IMG/VR virus record: IMGVR_UViG_3300009175_000083
Location: 1 to 21,719 of that record
DNA length: 21,719 bases
DNA from: a virus
Reading direction: 5' to 3' (one strand)
Below, piece by piece: positions 8,649-19,827 of the stretch. A program made the translations under genes and the position numbers. A model generated the notes under the pieces. The model was not told the DNA's origin and ran no database searches. It was given only the letters and a program-made list of their open reading frames with translations. How positions within the stretch are numbered: position 1 is the stretch's first letter; every line of letters begins with the position of its first letter.

Positions 8649-11372
8649 CTATTGTTCGTTTGTATCAAAATCGTCATAATTAGTATTTTGAGAAACACCG
8701 TAAATAACGCTATTTTCAGTTTCTTCAACCGTTATTTCTAAGGCTTCAAATTTAGATAATTCGTCTGTTTTGTCCGGAATGACGCAAATGACGGAATTAG
8801 GGGTTTTTGCTGAAACTATTTGAGAAGTGTCCTTCATGGAGGACTTTACGTCAGAATCTTTAATTCTGTCATTTGCGTCATTAACACCCTCTTTACCATC
8901 TAAATCTAATGTTTTAGTGACGCAAATGGCGCAATTTTCGCTATTTTCCAAATCTTCTTCAGATTCGATACTTCTGAAAAGGTTTCCTGTTTCTTGTAAA
9001 ATTGCGTCACTTGCGGCTTTTTTTGTCGTTATACCTCTGAGAAGCCTTATTCCGTCCGTCCCTCTAGACCTGTCAATTCCGTCTCTTTGTGCCAGATTTT
9101 TGGCAAACCATTGCACTGCTTTGAATGCCGGATGTTGCTTGTTTGTGTCACACCACGTTAAATATTCTTGCCATAATGAGCTTATTTCACATATCGCCTG
9201 CCAATGCAAAACGCACTCCATATCTAAGAACTCACCTATTGGATCCTGGCTGTCGAAAAGGGCTTCTATTTCGCGTTTTAAGACCTTGGGCATACGCAAA
9301 CCCTCTGATTTCCATTCAAGGCAGCCCTTGACCGCCCAGGCCAGTATTCCTGATGCTTCAGCAATCAACTTATCGTAGATTTTGTCATCCTTGACCGGTG
9401 TTTTGCCCTCATCCGGATCATAGAATCTTTGGCGAAAAGGGATTAGCTTGATACGGCGCTTCATTGCGAATGATTGGCTCCGTATTTTAGGAACATCGTT
9501 GGTAGCAAACACTATCTTGAATGTAGGAACGTAAGTGAAAAAGCTTTTGTAAAGATGCCGGCAGGTGATAGGGTCTCTACCAGCCACGCGTTTCAATAGC
9601 GGCTCATTGAAAGCTTGATTTTCTTCTGCTTCAGACGCAGTCACCAGCCTGGCCCCTGATAAGCTGGCCAGATCAGCAGTATTGTTGTCTGTTCTTTCTA
9701 CGAAAGTAGTAACAGGGGTATCTCTGATGTAATCGCCAAAAATATAACGAAGAACATCCATGAACTTTGATTTTCCACACTGGCCACGTCCATAAAGAAT
9801 GAACACTGATTCCTCCCGGGTATCACCTGTGAGGCAATAGCCAACCATTCGATGAACAAAATCTATGATCTCTTCATCTTCCTGGAAGACTTCCTTGAGG
9901 AACTGAATCCACCTGGGACACTCAGCTTCCGGATCATAAATAACAGGCGCTATTTTGCTGATCAAATCACGCTGCTGATGTGGCTTGAGTTTACCTGTTC
10001 GTAGGTCCACTGTGCCGTTCACACAGTTTAGAGCCCAATGATCGGCGTCCAGTGCCACTGTTTTCACTGGGACTCCCGGCAGATGACGCCCCAAGGCAAT
10101 CATTGCTTCAAGTCCTCTACGCGATTCTGAACGCTTTACATGACTAAACAAAGCTTTGCTTTTATCAGGATCCTGGATAGACGGAAGAGTATCGTACATC
10201 GATCTGATAGACATACACGCCAGGCGCTCTATTTCGCCAGTATCATCGCGTTTCCATTGCATTCCGGACCAATGTAACCATTGCCCTGAGTCGACATCAT
10301 AGCGCAGATTTTCGCCGTGCTGATCTATAAGGAATTCTGCATTACCCAGGTCGGTCAAATATTTGATGTCTGACAAAAATTGCCCAGTATTTAATTTGGA
10401 TCCCACTGAGTTTGAGTTATATATTTGCCGGGACTTGTATGTATGTCCACAGTCTTGAATTGCTCGCTGAAGTGTTTGCTCTCGATAATCATCCCGTTCC
10501 CATTTCTCGCGCATAAGCCCTGATTGACGGAACAACCGGTCCATTTGAGGCTGATTGCAGTCGGTCCAGAACGCCAGGAAATTACACAACGCTTGATCAG
10601 CTGCCGATGCATCATTATTATTGTTCGACAGGTCCCCGTTCCAAAGTTGGGTGAACTGGGGGCCATTCTTGGCTGCTTTGGCTTTGTCAATTACTTCATC
10701 ATCCGTAAGCGGTTTATCAGCTACATTCAATCTTTTATTTGTGGATAATTTGCGAGGCTTCTCTGGATCATCCGATCCAGTCTCAGCATTACCAAACATA
10801 TCAAAGTAAAGTGCTGATATTTCATTAGCTGCCGGCTGAATGATACCCGAGTTCCCGGGCACCAGGCAGCCCGTCATAACAAGGAATCGACGGTCCTCGT
10901 ATATTTCGATGTTTGGATGTTCGGACACTCTACAGCGGCGTCCTGGCTTCTTTCCTTTGATGATTATATGGACACCGCTGCCAGACCTCGAGTACTCCGC
11001 ATAGGAATCAAATTGATTGACTATCAGACGTGCCCAGGACTCCAACTCTTTGATGCCAGTTTCAGGATTCTCAATTACACAATGATCAAGATCAATCCCG
11101 ACATAAGGATCTGATGCTGAAACTATAAAGCCTATACCCTCATATCGTTTGGCCACTGATGCACATTGCTCAAAAGTGCCCCAGGTAGCCGGATCGTCCG
11201 ATTTAGCACGGGACCCGCCATTCCAGTTAATTGGTATTTTTGTAGGCTTATCCTCGCGAATCTCGATTTTATAACAAACCCATTGAGGACGTTCTCGCAA
11301 CTCCAATGGTATTTTTTCGTATTCGAGTTCAATAGCATTTTTAGTTGATGACATTGGAGTTGTCGGACTCAT
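8649..11372 (-). CDS. PrimPol / D5-type primase-helicase (907 aa)
   Basis: This is the replication protein. The N-terminal domain is an archaeo-eukaryotic primase-polymerase: hDhD motif GIDLDH (residues 92-97), SGSGVHI (130-136, sxH motif), then IEIYEDRRFLVMTG (155-168). A D5/P4-type SF3 helicase follows: Walker A GRGQCGKS (528-535), acidic Walker B-like segment LVTASEAEEN (576-585), FATNDVPKI (622-630) and the Arg-rich AMKRRIKLIPF (636-646). It would prime and unwind at the phage origin. The ATG at 11372 overlaps the helicase-gene stop (CAATGA) and has GGAGG 9 nt upstream. The last 110 residues are hydrophilic and low in structure. Their coding DNA carries repeated TGACGCAAATGAC elements in both orientations, a possible origin. 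Confidence 0.93.
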   Translation of the reverse strand: MSPTTPMSSTKNAIELEYEKIPLELRERPQWVCYKIEIREDKPTKIPINWNGGSRAKSDDPATWGTFEQCASVAKRYEGIGFIVSASDPYVGIDLDHCVIENPETGIKELESWARLIVNQFDSYAEYSRSGSGVHIIIKGKKPGRRCRVSEHPNIEIYEDRRFLVMTGCLVPGNSGIIQPAANEISALYFDMFGNAETGSDDPEKPRKLSTNKRLNVADKPLTDDEVIDKAKAAKNGPQFTQLWNGDLSNNNNDASAADQALCNFLAFWTDCNQPQMDRLFRQSGLMREKWERDDYREQTLQRAIQDCGHTYKSRQIYNSNSVGSKLNTGQFLSDIKYLTDLGNAEFLIDQHGENLRYDVDSGQWLHWSGMQWKRDDTGEIERLACMSIRSMYDTLPSIQDPDKSKALFSHVKRSESRRGLEAMIALGRHLPGVPVKTVALDADHWALNCVNGTVDLRTGKLKPHQQRDLISKIAPVIYDPEAECPRWIQFLKEVFQEDEEIIDFVHRMVGYCLTGDTREESVFILYGRGQCGKSKFMDVLRYIFGDYIRDTPVTTFVERTDNNTADLASLSGARLVTASEAEENQAFNEPLLKRVAGRDPITCRHLYKSFFTYVPTFKIVFATNDVPKIRSQSFAMKRRIKLIPFRQRFYDPDEGKTPVKDDKIYDKLIAEASGILAWAVKGCLEWKSEGLRMPKVLKREIEALFDSQDPIGEFLDMECVLHWQAICEISSLWQEYLTWCDTNKQHPAFKAVQWFAKNLAQRDGIDRSRGTDGIRLLRGITTKKAASDAILQETGNLFRSIESEEDLENSENCAICVTKTLDLDGKEGVNDANDRIKDSDVKSSMKDTSQIVSAKTPNSVICVIPDKTDELSKFEALEITVEETENSVIYGVSQNTNYDDFDTNEQ
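8780..9009. repeat. Iteron-like repeats of TGACGCAAATGAC inside the primase gene (candidate origin)
   Basis: TGACGCAAATGAC occurs at 8780-8792, as an exact inverted copy at 8868-8880, and with one change (TGACGCAAATGGC) at 8918-8930. A shorter inverted TTGCGTCA lies at 9002-9009. The copies are read in opposite orientations through the same reading frame and encode different peptides (SVICVI against NDAND), so the conservation is at DNA level. Repeats in an initiator gene are a common origin layout (lambda O is the classic case). Origin function is inferred. Confidence 0.5.
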
Positions 11373-13717
11373 TGATTCAGACCTCCACAGGATGCTAATG
11401 ACATCCAGGTTCGTCGTTCTATTGGAGTAGTTGTTCTGATGGCTTTACGAATACCTTGGATGTCACCTAATACGATGGCTGTTTTGCGAGCCCGGGTGAC
11501 TGCTGTATAGAAAAGGTTCCTGCTTAACATATAGGTATGCTGTCGATGAATAATACAGACTACACAGGCATATTCAGATCCTTGGACCTTGTGGATAGAA
11601 CATGCATACGCCAGGACGATATTATTCGCTTGAGTGGTCCCCATTTCGATTTGGGTTAATTCGTCCCGGTCCTCAAATTTAATCTTCATCACAGTTACAG
11701 GTCCGTCAGGTGTTTGATCTTTATCTATACTTTCAATCACTCCTTGAGTTCCATTCATAACATCCAGCTTATAATCGTTCTTAATCTGCATGATTTTGTC
11801 TCCCTTGAGGAAGACTGTGTGCGGCTCTTTATCTTTGATGACTTCAGGTAGGTCCAGGCCGTATTTTCGTTTCTGCCATACACACTGCAACTCAGCATTT
11901 AAACGATTGACACCTAATTTGCCTTTGTTATAAGGAGTGATGATTTGGCATTCTAAAACAGGATCAAATCCCCATTGTTCAAACTTGCCATTCATTAGAC
12001 TCCGGAGTGAATCAACAAGAATATCTGGATCCTCGAGCTCTCGAATTACCCGCCATTCTCTACCTCCGCCCGCGAGGACTTCTGTGGTGGGTTTTACTAT
12101 CCCATCTAAAATGGCATTGCAATTGATTTTCAATTCACCAGCTGCGCGATGGCATTCAGTAAGATAGTGAGATGGAATTAATTCGCGATCGAGAATGTCC
12201 CTGAGCACATTGCCCGCGCCGATCGGAGGAAGTTGGTTATGGTCCCCCACTAATAAAACTTGTGTTTCAGTCCAGTTAATAGCTGAAAACAAGTGCCAAA
12301 GCAGATTAATGTCACACATTGAAACTTCATCCACAACAATGAAGTTGTAGGGGAGTTTATTCTCTGCCGTATAACCCCATCCAGTTTGAGGATTATACTC
12401 AAGCAGTCTGTGGATAGTCATTGCAGGCGCACCCTCAGCCAGGCTAGACATACGTTTTGCAGCTTTACCTGTAGGCGCACACATCCCAATGCTTAACTCT
12501 TCATTTTGGAAAACCTTACAGGCAAGGGCTATTGTGAATGATTTACCTGTTCCAGCGCCGCCAGTGATAACAGAAATTCCATTTTCAAGAACCATTTTCA
12601 CTGCTTGACGTTGGGATTCAGTTGGTGTTTTACCTGTTGCGCTGGCGGCATCTTCGATTAGCTCATCAGGACTTTTAGAAAACTCTACTTCACCCCCGGG
12701 AGCGTTTATACTTGCTCTTCCCTCAGCAAACCATTTGATCAGGTCTGTTTCGCGATTATATATTTTCGTCAGAGCTATTAAGGATCCGGAACCTTTAATC
12801 TCTTCAATGAACATTTCAGATCCACAAAGCTCGACAATACCATTTTCAACTTGAGTGTATGCAGCCAGAGAATCCAGCGCTAAAGTGGAAACAGCATTCC
12901 TAATCAATTCTTTTTTGGATATCCAGCAATGACCTCCAGTATCGGCCTCGTTTTCCAGAAGATAGACAAGACATGCTCGAATGCGTCCAGGATGTTCTTT
13001 CGGTATCCGCATCTTCATTGCAATTTCATCAGTTCGGGCAAATCCGAAGCCGCGTAGTTCTCCACAGAGAATATATGGATCCGCTTCTAATATCTGTTTG
13101 GCTTGATTGCCATACTTCTCGGCAATGCTTTTAATCTGACAATGGGTAAGTCCAAATGATGAAAGCCAAATTGATATGGCATTGGTATCTGATTTCAAAA
13201 CCCATTCAGCTTGAACTGCATAAGCTTGCTCTATTGTGATTTTGCCGACTTTGGCAACTTTTTCCGGATCTTCGCGGATGATTTGATCAAAGTTAGAGGA
13301 GAATGCTTCCGCAATCAATTTTGATTTAACTGGACCAATGCCTTTAAAAGCAGGATTGTTTGTCAGATATTCAGCGATACCGTCAGAAGAGTCTATATCT
13401 GGCATAGGATATTCGATTAATTTGGCTTTGAACTGCCAACCCCATTTTGCATCTTTGACCCAGGCGCCATGCATTATTACTTTTTCACCAAGCGCAACTG
13501 AGGAAGTTACAGAGAAGCTTACATCTCGATCAAGAGATACGTTTTTCTCTTGTAGTCTGCCGGCGCTCCAAGTTTCTGAAGCTCTGTTTATATGGGTGAT
13601 TGTCCCTTCTATTTTGGTTTGCTTTTCATAGTCACGCTCACCCATAGACATCAGATACGAGTCAAAATCTACACCGTCAACAGGTTTACCTATCTTGCTT
13701 TTCTCCGCAGTCTCCAT
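11369..13717 (-). CDS. RecD2-like SF1 5'-3' DNA helicase (782 aa)
   Basis: The N-terminal part (about 30-100) resembles the OB-like domain of RecD2. Next comes a helix-hairpin-helix region (AFKGIGPVKSKLIAEAF, 123-139). Helicase motifs are I GGAGTGKS (386-393), Ia MCAPTGKAAKRM, II VVDEVSM (461-467), III LLVGDHNQLPPIG (488-500), V/VI YACSIHKVQGSEY and LFYTAVTRARK near the C-terminus. It would unwind DNA with 5'-3' polarity in replication or recombination. It lacks RecBC partners, as RecD2 proteins do. The start at ATG 13717 has GGGGGGAGAG just upstream and overlaps the ERCC4 gene by 32 nt. Its stop overlaps the primase ATG. It may assist replication with the PrimPol/D5 protein. Confidence 0.9.
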   Translation of the reverse strand: METAEKSKIGKPVDGVDFDSYLMSMGERDYEKQTKIEGTITHINRASETWSAGRLQEKNVSLDRDVSFSVTSSVALGEKVIMHGAWVKDAKWGWQFKAKLIEYPMPDIDSSDGIAEYLTNNPAFKGIGPVKSKLIAEAFSSNFDQIIREDPEKVAKVGKITIEQAYAVQAEWVLKSDTNAISIWLSSFGLTHCQIKSIAEKYGNQAKQILEADPYILCGELRGFGFARTDEIAMKMRIPKEHPGRIRACLVYLLENEADTGGHCWISKKELIRNAVSTLALDSLAAYTQVENGIVELCGSEMFIEEIKGSGSLIALTKIYNRETDLIKWFAEGRASINAPGGEVEFSKSPDELIEDAASATGKTPTESQRQAVKMVLENGISVITGGAGTGKSFTIALACKVFQNEELSIGMCAPTGKAAKRMSSLAEGAPAMTIHRLLEYNPQTGWGYTAENKLPYNFIVVDEVSMCDINLLWHLFSAINWTETQVLLVGDHNQLPPIGAGNVLRDILDRELIPSHYLTECHRAAGELKINCNAILDGIVKPTTEVLAGGGREWRVIRELEDPDILVDSLRSLMNGKFEQWGFDPVLECQIITPYNKGKLGVNRLNAELQCVWQKRKYGLDLPEVIKDKEPHTVFLKGDKIMQIKNDYKLDVMNGTQGVIESIDKDQTPDGPVTVMKIKFEDRDELTQIEMGTTQANNIVLAYACSIHKVQGSEYACVVCIIHRQHTYMLSRNLFYTAVTRARKTAIVLGDIQGIRKAIRTTTPIERRTWMSLASCGGLNQ

Positions 13718-14144
13718 ACTTCTCTCCCCCCAACTTCAAAAGCTCTTCAACTAGCACCCTGGCATGTGGCCTGTCACCGGCAAACACTATATGGACCGGA
13801 CTATATGAATGCATTAATCCGCAAGTAATACCCAGCAGCGCTGCCGGCGTTATTTCTGATCTATAATCTCCTGCAAGGATGTCCGATATAGAAGCTTCGA
13901 TGACCACTGCGGCGAATGCGTATTCTTGCAATTTTTTTAGTTCAACCCCGAAACGGCGCTTGCCTTGGATAACTGTGTGTATATAGTCTTCTAATGATTT
14001 TCGCTCAATGGCTATTGTGGTTTCCAAACCTTCGAGTGAATAATCCCCCGCGGGGAGTGCTTTTTTGCAACACTCCCCGTTGAAGATGTAAGGGCGTTGT
14101 TCACGCGAGTCTATTATGATTTTGCGTTGTCCAACAGTGTCCAA
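13686..14144 (-). CDS. ERCC4 (XPF/Mus81-type) nuclease
   Basis: The 152-aa protein is almost only an ERCC4 nuclease fold. IIIDSREQRPY (9-19) is followed by PAGDYSLEG (31-39) and the catalytic signature ERKSLED (47-53, ERKxxxD). A basic KRRFGVELKKLQ segment (62-73) and the core strand FAAVVIEA come next. The family cuts branched or flap DNA. There is no helix-hairpin-helix after it, so it may work as a dimer or with another DNA-binding protein. The start is TTG at 14144, directly after the SSB-like gene, and no ATG lies before the catalytic part. Together with Sak4-like, SSB-like and RecD2-like genes it suggests processing of recombination intermediates. No RusA- or RuvC-type resolvase is visible in the window. 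Confidence 0.87.
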   Translation of the reverse strand: MDTVGQRKIIIDSREQRPYIFNGECCKKALPAGDYSLEGLETTIAIERKSLEDYIHTVIQGKRRFGVELKKLQEYAFAAVVIEASISDILAGDYRSEITPAALLGITCGLMHSYSPVHIVFAGDRPHARVLVEELLKLGGEKYGDCGEKQDR

Positions 14145-14146
14145 TG

Positions 14147-14722
14147 TTAATCGTCCGCAAATGGATCGTAGTTATCATCACCAGGCTTAGGTTTGGCTGA
14201 CTTGGTTGAAGATGCTTTGCCGGATCCAGTTGCCGCCGTCGCTGAAGCTTCTGGTTGAACCTCCCCAACTCTGCCCAAAAACTTGTTCAGGTAAATGTTC
14301 GGGAGATCCTGGCCAGCCCGGGTCTTTACCTGGACTTCAACAAGAACGTCGAGAAGCTCATTTCTGCGAGTGGCCAGGAACTTAGAGAGCATGAATCCTT
14401 GTGCTTCAGTGTCAACGCCATACATTTTGAGATCATGCTTCAAGTAGCCTATCTGCTGTATGGCTTTGTCACGCTGCTCTCCCTCTTCAGGAATGTTGTT
14501 CCATCGGAAGATTTTGCCACCCTCCTGGGGCCCATCATGGACTTCGAGTTCCTGAGAAAAACCCAGAACCTCTTTTTTAGATCGCTTTACGTCGACCGCT
14601 TCCAGTCTGCACACGTAAGTTCCATCAGGAACTCTTTTTCCTACTTCGGCTTCTGGAGTCGCATTGAACACGTTGTCTAGATAACCCAGCTCTACATCAG
14701 CTGTAAATGCTGTTTCTGCCAT
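14147..14722 (-). CDS. SSB-like single-stranded DNA-binding protein with acidic tail (DUF669-like)
   Basis: The 191-aa protein starts at ATG 14722 with AAGGAG 10 nt upstream. A beta-rich body (about 25-155) has DGTYVCRLEAVDVKRSKK, GKIFRWNNIPEEGEQ and LLDVLVEVQVKTRAGQDLPN, like the OB-fold phage SSB-like family DUF669. A disordered Ala/Ser/Gly/Lys linker (about 157-182) leads to the acidic tip DDNYDPFADD. Such tips in SSBs recruit partner proteins. It would coat single-stranded DNA during replication and annealing, next to the Sak4-like ATPase gene. SSB role is supported by architecture; the exact family is by pattern. Confidence 0.78.
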   Translation of the reverse strand: MAETAFTADVELGYLDNVFNATPEAEVGKRVPDGTYVCRLEAVDVKRSKKEVLGFSQELEVHDGPQEGGKIFRWNNIPEEGEQRDKAIQQIGYLKHDLKMYGVDTEAQGFMLSKFLATRRNELLDVLVEVQVKTRAGQDLPNIYLNKFLGRVGEVQPEASATAATGSGKASSTKSAKPKPGDDNYDPFADD

Positions 14723-14750
14723 TTGAATTGTTCTCCTTAATGTTTGATTT

Positions 14751-14767
14751 TTCGACTTTTGATTTTG
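14751..14767. repeat. CTTTTGATTTTG repeat downstream of the Sak4-like gene
   Basis: The 64-bp gap 14723-14786 holds CTTTTGATTTTG, also found upstream of the same gene at 15606-15617, with related CTTTTGATCTTT at 15571-15582. The gaps flanking this one gene thus share A/T-rich repeats. They may be leftovers of insertion, or RNA signals; function is unknown. Confidence 0.3.
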
Positions 14768-14786
14768 GGCATGTATTTTTTAGAAT

Positions 14787-15542
14787 CTACTTCGAGTGTT
14801 TGAAAATCCAATCTTCTTCGGTTATCTGTTCACCAAGTAGCGCTTTCGAAAACGCATTGTAATTTAAAGGAAGAGTATCTGGAATATCCGGATCATCTGG
14901 GCCTAATCTGACACCAGCTTCATAAATGGTTGTAGGCTTTGTGTGGATAACATGCTGGTAACCAGTTATAGATCCCTCTTCGCTCGTTATCTCTTCGACA
15001 CAGGTATATAGAATGTAGTCAGCAACACCGGCAACAACTTTCAAAGCTCCGGATGATAAGGCAGAAGCTATTTTAGTTTCCTTACCTGTTCTGGTCTTAA
15101 CCTGTTTTTCTGTGCTGTGCCCTATCATCATTAATCCGTAGGGAAGAAGTGAGAGCTTGTTGATTGCCCTGAAAAGCTCATCGTTCACCAGCTTGTATCC
15201 AGTATTGTTTTCATCTGTGCCCCTGGCCATATCGTTCTTTTTGAGCACATAATCAAAACAGAAGCGATATAGATTATCAATCGTGTCGATCACTATGGTT
15301 TTCCTGTCGTGATCTCCATCTTTAATGAGTTTGAACACCTGACAGAAATCCAACCAGGACGATACTTCGACTTTCCGCAAGTGTAAGTGAGATTGCCCTG
15401 GCTCGGTCGCTATAAACAGAGCATCCGGAGCCTGGCTGCAGAATGTCGTCTTGCCGATCTTGCGCTCGCCATATATAAAGGTGATCTTTTGTGATATGTC
15501 TTTGATCGGAATGGAATCTTCCGTTGGTAATGCCTCAATCAT
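14787..15542 (-). CDS. Sak4-like RecA-fold ATPase (phage recombinase)
   Basis: The 251-aa AAA/RecA-core protein has Walker A GERKIGKT (25-32), Walker B KTIVIDTIDNLY (81-92) and MMIGHSTEKQ near 137-147 as the downstream sensor-like segment. This is the layout of phage Sak4/AAA_24 ATPases, which anneal single strands with an SSB partner in phage recombination. An SSB-like gene lies 64 bp downstream. The ATG at 15542 has only a weak ribosome site (AGG 9 nt upstream). It is flanked by A/T-rich repeats and preceded by a G/C hairpin. A non-recombinase P-loop protein is possible, but context favours recombination. Confidence 0.82.
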   Translation of the reverse strand: MIEALPTEDSIPIKDISQKITFIYGERKIGKTTFCSQAPDALFIATEPGQSHLHLRKVEVSSWLDFCQVFKLIKDGDHDRKTIVIDTIDNLYRFCFDYVLKKNDMARGTDENNTGYKLVNDELFRAINKLSLLPYGLMMIGHSTEKQVKTRTGKETKIASALSSGALKVVAGVADYILYTCVEEITSEEGSITGYQHVIHTKPTTIYEAGVRLGPDDPDIPDTLPLNYNAFSKALLGEQITEEDWIFKHSK

Positions 15543-19119: not shown

Positions 19120-19800
19120 CTAACTCGAAGCCTCGGCCGGTTCGTTTGCTTCTGTAGTCTCAACTGGAGCTTCAACCAATCCGATTTCTACCAAATCTTT
19201 CTCACCCACTACATTACAGCGCCAAAGGCGTATTTTTCCATCGGTGCCAACTGGAATACAGGCGATATCGGCTGCAGTGAACTCAACAACCAATATGCGA
19301 TTAGTTATTTGCCATTCGCGCATACACCAGTCAAGTGTGGCTACGTTTATACCAGCCCCACATTGTTCACGATCGTTAGTATCTGCTTCCGTTTCACAGA
19401 CTTCCTCACCCATAATGTATTTCAGTCGTTTATGGTGTATTGGGGATTGGAGATCATGCGTAACCAGCTTGTAAAGCCTAATCGGTCCAGGTTGATCGAG
19501 AAGCATCATCAAAGGAATGGATTTATATTTACTCACCCCGTTGGCCCTGGACAGGTCGGCCCCATACAGGTTGGCCCCATACAGGTCGGCCCCATACAGG
19601 TTGGCCCCATACAGGTTGGCCCCAGACAGGTTGGCCCCATACAGGTTGGCCCTGGACAGGTCGGCCCCAGACAGGTTGGCCTTTTTATCCACAACAGCCG
19701 CTTTCAGGTCTGCGTATTCGCCTGCAATGATTATTTCGCCTGTAAATCGGTGTTTGATTTCGATGTGCTGCAGTTTTGGTTCGTTGTTCTCAATTGTCAT
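19120..19800 (-). CDS. Pentapeptide-repeat protein with DUF5758-like C-terminal domain (226 aa)
   Basis: ATG 19800 is preferred (AGGAG 11 nt upstream); a GTG three codons earlier is only 2 nt from the same ribosome site. Residues about 40-90 are nine consecutive A(N/D)LxG/R pentapeptides ([15 protein letters not shown]), predicted to form a right-handed beta-helix turn. The C-terminal part ([53 protein letters not shown]) is the domain often found behind phage pentapeptide repeats. Known pentapeptide proteins can mimic DNA, but the tract here is short, so a structural or recognition role is as likely. It is the second gene of the early leftward operon. Confidence 0.8.
19543..19677 (-). repeat. 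Nine tandem 15-bp DNA repeats coding for the pentapeptides
   Basis: Nine 15-bp units run from 19543 to 19677, all variants of GGCCCCATACAGGTT with changes confined to a few positions (CCATA/CCAGA/CTGGA and a final T/C). The near-identity at DNA level, including synonymous sites, points to recent duplication or gene conversion. Copy-number change would stay in frame. Confidence 0.85.
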
Positions 19801-19827
19801 TTCAATCACTTCTCCTATCTAGCGGCG

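Follow-up and report, generated by a model that had tools for sequence, protein, structure and literature searches.

In pRN1, a stem-loop of ~100 bp (21-nt stem, 58-nt loop) located directly 3′ of rep is required for replication, and such a stem-loop, explicitly not iterons, has been proposed for prim-pol/SF3/winged-helix proteins generally (PMC4234260). The origins of SaPI and SCC elements consist of iterons just downstream of rep that are bound by the initiator's C-terminal domain (PMC7581432). In SaPI, the repeats have opposite orientations and two head-to-head hexamers are loaded (PMC9894130). The ori of lambda is embedded in the reading frame of gene O, where added iterons lengthen the protein (PMC7466680). 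Here, we describe repeats in a phage fragment of ~21.7 kb, the 21,719-nt IMG/VR virus record IMGVR_UViG_3300009175_000083, which was analyzed at full length and is referred to as the window. Very probably, these repeats are a phage replication origin made up of facing 9-bp iteron arrays ~100 bp apart within the reading frame of the initiator. This reading follows from the geometry of the repeats, conservation of DNA rather than peptide, the domains of the protein and the position of the site relative to origins annotated in homologues.

The site is best read as a putative origin of the SaPI/pRN1 type that lies within the initiator ORF and would serve head-to-head initiator helicases. Like the SaPI and SCC elements (SaPI5 Rep, SaPIbov1, Cch2), the window has a homologous initiator (7ola), iterons on the 3′ side and opposed repeats around a spacer. 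Two hallmarks of the SaPI/P4 type, the origins of self-loading SF3 helicases, are present: the initiator is a D5/SF3 primase-helicase whose C-terminal DNA-binding domain is a winged helix as predicted by AlphaFold2, and two opposed iteron sets flank a spacer. However, the SaPI/SCC origin is downstream of its gene, whereas the window's site falls within the ORF, in frame, and comprises two units, which makes it a variant of this type and not a typical example. With pRN1 and BIP-1, the locus shares the combination of prim-pol, SF3 and winged-helix domains and, at the gene's 3′ end, a ~100-bp element with ~21-nt arms and a ~60-nt loop. In contrast, the pRN1 element was described as a non-coding stem-loop without iterons, whereas the arms in the window are translated tandem iterons; the element in the window has a comparable size (105 nt with 22-nt arms) but lies within the gene, and the pRN1 hallmark of a structure conserved without conserved repeats was not found. 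Lactobacillus phages A2 and phi-adh encode a homologous primase (32-34% identity) and have facing arrays in their annotated origin, but these arrays are directly behind the primase ORF, outside it, and their iteron sequences differ. Finally, lambda resembles the window in having iterons within the initiator's reading frame, but its initiator is unrelated and its iterons lie mid-gene beside an AT-rich tract, as opposed to facing arrays in a C-terminal tail. Profile searches gave no match to an O-like family, i.e., to an O-type initiator that recruits the host helicase.

The primase-helicase and its two facing iteron units

The ORF at 8649-11372 (minus strand) encodes a 907-aa prim-pol/SF3 (D5, P4-family) primase-helicase. 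The protein matched the profiles PF08706 (D5_N, 1e-34), PF22763 (NrS-1 HBD) and DUF5906, as well as phrog_1829 DNA primase (3e-201), and scored above the cut-off for TIGR01613; its domains are arranged in the order prim-pol, helix bundle and D5-type SF3 helicase. The closest solved relatives in a profile search were the SaPI5 primase-helicase 7ola (7e-61) and the NrS-1 primase. In agreement with the profile match, 7ola was also found by Foldseek with the helicase part (TMt 0.69). A single-protein viral scan for relatives returned no match, and relatives were found by alignment-based searches. Residues 696-783 (9024-9287, minus strand) form a C-terminal winged-helix-like domain, the predicted iteron reader, for which AlphaFold2 gave the order H-H-E-H-H-E-E, a winged-helix topology and a pLDDT of mostly 85-95; its match to PF03288 (Pox_D5) was weak (E 0.0074, below the cut-off). 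Residues 797-907 (8652-8984, minus strand) are a disordered tail with a pLDDT below 50, which is absent or short in aligned homologues of known phages. All of the repeats fall within residues 785-864, mostly in the disordered tail behind the winged-helix-like domain. The site lies within the last 123 codons of the ORF and ends before the stop codon, and the neighboring gene begins 9 nt past that codon. An earlier sequence-only reading, which had proposed a candidate origin in a poorly structured tail at residues ~787-865, agrees with this residue range. Upstream of the primase, a replication and recombination block of the window (11369-15542, minus strand) encodes a RecD2-like helicase, an ERCC4 nuclease, an SSB-like protein and a Sak4-like annealing ATPase.

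The 13-mer TGACGCAAATGAC on which that reading was based occurs where it had been reported, exactly at 8780-8792 (+) and 8868-8880 (−) and with one mismatch at 8918-8930 (+). Many copies scattered elsewhere had been named as evidence against an origin; a search of the whole 21,719-nt record at ≤1 mismatch found no further copy. Although these copies are real, the true repeat unit is a 9-mer, TGACGSAAW, arranged in tandem pairs, and the 13-mer is part of two tandem iterons. The pairs make up two facing units, 8780-8880 and 8918-9018, whose geometry is identical: a tandem iteron pair stands against an inverted pair, and the unit measures 101 nt between its outer edges. On reading the sequence of unit 1, the left pair TGACGCAAA TGACGGAAT (8780-8797, +) is faced by the right pair TGACGCAAA TGACAGAAT (8863-8880, −), and the spacer between them (8798-8862) contains the hairpin AGTCCTCCATGAAGGACACT (coding strand) and an extra iteron copy, TGACGTAAA (8845-8853, −; 8/9 match). 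Unit 2 consists of the left pair TGACGCAAA TGGCGCAAT (8918-8935, +), a spacer (8936-9000) and the partly decayed right pair AGCCGCAAG TGACGCAAT (9001-9018, −), whose inner iteron matches at 8/9 positions. A short inverted copy had been placed at 9002-9009; it exists, but is better described as the two tandem iterons of this last pair.

Unit 2 is offset from unit 1 by 138 nt (46 codons), and the two are identical at 57 of 101 positions, with 29 of 36 matching in the arrays and 28 of 65 between them. Most simply, they arose through a tandem duplication of 138 nt, after which one copy partly decayed. Within 8690-9060 there are seven iteron matches of ≥7/9, where the frequency in the remainder of the window predicts ~1. 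The repeats lie in the window's most AT-rich kilobase; the GC skew does not change sign near them and favors neither side. An Rfam search of the window found no known RNA family. Elsewhere in the window (19120-19809, minus strand), a gene for a pentapeptide-repeat protein contains DNA repeats unrelated to the origin, and these probably account for the window's highest repeat score.

Conservation of facing arrays among homologues

Related loci were gathered from IMG/VR and GTDB genomes. The closest relatives (L015 and L158, 54-56% identity) have an iteron in common with the window, arranged in facing tandem pairs in the same ORF tail and with nearly the same span. The arrays TGACGCAATTGACGCAAAT ... 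ATGCGTCAATTGCGTCA of L015 encode the peptides PLDAIDANN/NASIAS and the arrays AGTGACGCAAGTGACGCAAAT ... ATTGCGTCACTTGCGTCACT of L158 encode NSDASDAN/IASLAS, both unlike the VNDAND/NSVICVI encoded by the window's repeats. Five further relatives (L016, L017, L096, L098 and L171; 39-42% identity) also have facing arrays within the tail, built from related or different iterons of the GTGACG type or GTGAACC. The sequence-only reading had held that protein selection cannot explain the copies, had suggested an alignment of homologues as a check, and had named homologues that keep the peptide but not the DNA repeats as evidence to the contrary. The alignment gave the reverse, since DNA repeats are conserved and the peptide is lost in L015, L158 and the 39-42% relatives alike. 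A scan of IMG/VR for the tandem-iteron pattern yielded 65 stretches, only one of which (L252, on the same contig as L015) was located in the tail of a D5 primase in the stretches examined; the geometry is therefore diagnostic, but the exact iteron is not. Tandem TGACGCAAA arrays in L315 (1014-1119) and L257 (8015-8275) are divergent, pointing outward, and are ~105 and ~250 nt across, respectively. No D5 helicase was found in the stretches of these two loci that were examined, and the arrays perhaps serve, as origin or operator, an unrelated system that uses a similar iteron.

To survey the family, we applied to 229 loci, at the 3′ end of the helicase core, a detector that looks for a single 7-mer present twice in each orientation, with a spacing of 8-13 nt and a separation of 35-130 nt; 458 random windows from the same contigs were the controls. 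Facing arrays with ≤1 total mismatch were present at 83 of 229 loci vs. 0 of 458 control windows, and with ≤2 mismatches at 118 vs. 2. About half of the 229 homologous loci have no strict array, indicating that either the detector or the rule is incomplete. Food phages A2 and phi-adh, whose origins are annotated, were the positive controls, and in both the arrays coincide with the rep_origin; the proposal of a candidate origin is thus supported by annotated origins as well as by the published ones of pRN1, SaPI and SCC. The rule that emerges, in which tandem iterons of 8-12 nt face each other over ~100 bp where prim-pol/SF3 helicase genes have their 3′ end, locates candidate origins for a large class of phages and plasmids by sequence alone.

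The arrays have a mean span of 104 nt (sd 11). Spacers are AT-rich relative to their flanks (72 vs. 60%; n = 90, p = 4e-14); that of the window is 64% AT and not above its flanks. Two motifs, AAAACCC and AAGTCCC, recur in the spacers of 14 and 7 of 90 loci, respectively, vs. 0.7 and 0.2 expected from mononucleotide shuffles, which is suggestive of candidate priming or melting sites. TATAGAAAA also recurs in the spacers between facing arrays of the 90 loci, and the window's spacer contains AAAAACCCC and AAAGTCC.

Alternative readings: stem-loop, operator and peptide selection

One alternative is that the functional unit is a stem-loop or cruciform in the style of pRN1 and that the repeats matter only through pairing. 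Unit 1 lies in a 105-nt inverted repeat (8778-8882) that could fold as a single large stem-loop, with 22-nt arms (8778-8799 and 8861-8882; 21/22 complementary) and a 61-nt loop resembling the 21-nt stem and 58-nt loop of pRN1. The predicted DNA fold of this element has an energy of −20.4 kcal/mol (z −4.2), and the arms of L015 and L158 extend over 38-48 nt with 81-84% complementarity. Nevertheless, facing iterons are also kept in L016, where no inverted repeat reaches 11 nt, and in L171, whose only such repeat does not connect the two arrays into a stem. Moreover, unequal arm spacing at 20 of 63 loci prevents inner and outer units from pairing in a single register, and inward complementarity beside the arrays oscillates with the period of the iterons. 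On these grounds, comparison of the sequences indicates that the conserved part is the iterons, not the stem. Pairing would also need no repeats within each arm, and we regard the stem-loop explanation as unlikely. The findings suggest a single architecture behind the stem-loop of the pRN1 type and the iterons of the SaPI type.

Still less probable is that the site lacks origin function and is an operator, used either by a repressor or to autoregulate the replication operon. Any dimeric regulator could bind facing repeats, and the site does lie in the replication operon; it is, however, at the 3′ end of a gene rather than at a promoter, and the annotated or tested origin of homologues occupies the equivalent position. 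Among operators, arrays of at least four units spanning ~100 nt are unusual. That the repeats are a by-product of peptide selection on a low-complexity tail can practically be dismissed, repetitive and disordered though the tail is, because oppositely oriented copies encode unrelated peptides, relatives conserve the DNA while altering the peptide, and the tail's best inverted-repeat score of 19 was attained in 0 of 600 synonymous-codon shuffles with the protein fixed (300 + 300; maxima of 18 and 13).

Proposed initiation from within the initiator's reading frame

If the repeats are an origin, the C-terminal winged-helix domain of the primase would bind the iterons, as supported by position, homology and co-inheritance. 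By analogy with SaPI, SV40 and pRN1, two hexamers would then assemble head to head, the spacer would be melted, and the prim-pol would start primers in the melted spacer. In the lineage of the window, an origin that usually lies behind the primase gene would be translated as a disordered tail. Domain-specific co-evolution of the iteron and the winged helix was also considered and set aside: iteron similarity tracks the winged-helix domain only marginally better than it tracks the helicase domain, and partial correlations of 0.15 and 0.11 fail to discriminate between them.

Most arrays are found just past the primase stop codon, and in several lineages, including that of the window, the ORF reads through. 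The array is wholly inside the ORF at 10 of 63 non-redundant loci (≤1 mismatch). The period of these embedded arrays is 9/9 at nine loci and 8/8 at one, a 9-nt period being in-frame, and 18 of 20 embedded spacings are multiples of three vs. 53 of 106 elsewhere (Fisher p = 0.001, uncorrected for shared ancestry). On a FastTree phylogeny built from 138 cores, six changes are needed to account for the embedded state, and well-supported branches force at least three of them; this count merges gains and losses, and several embedded rows are on long branches. Examples beyond the window's clade are L198 (REPCEPCEP/GSQGSHHSQ), L233 (GYDGYDGS/PSYPSYPS) and L099. Outside the lambda group, these cases point to repeated evolution of origins within the initiator's own codons. 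In such origins, DNA-level selection would dictate a disordered protein tail, which can readily be taken for protein repeats.

The last 20 residues have a net charge of −2 to −7 in embedded cases, compared with a mean of +0.5 in short-tailed homologues; in the window's primase (8652-8711), this acidic end has a net charge of −4. It is only suggestive that acidic tips are the reason for the ORF staying open through the origin. It is possible, if rather doubtful, that translation of the origin is itself functional, with the ORF kept open through iterons whose period is locked to 9 nt, the acidic tip contacting another replication protein and occupancy of the origin feeding back on the initiator's last codons; such feedback would act on their transcription or translation. 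The C-terminal ends behind embedded origins are acidic, often with a hydrophobic last residue (LDWSNGVAF, DMEVF and DVEEF), and recall the protein-interaction tip of the SSB type.
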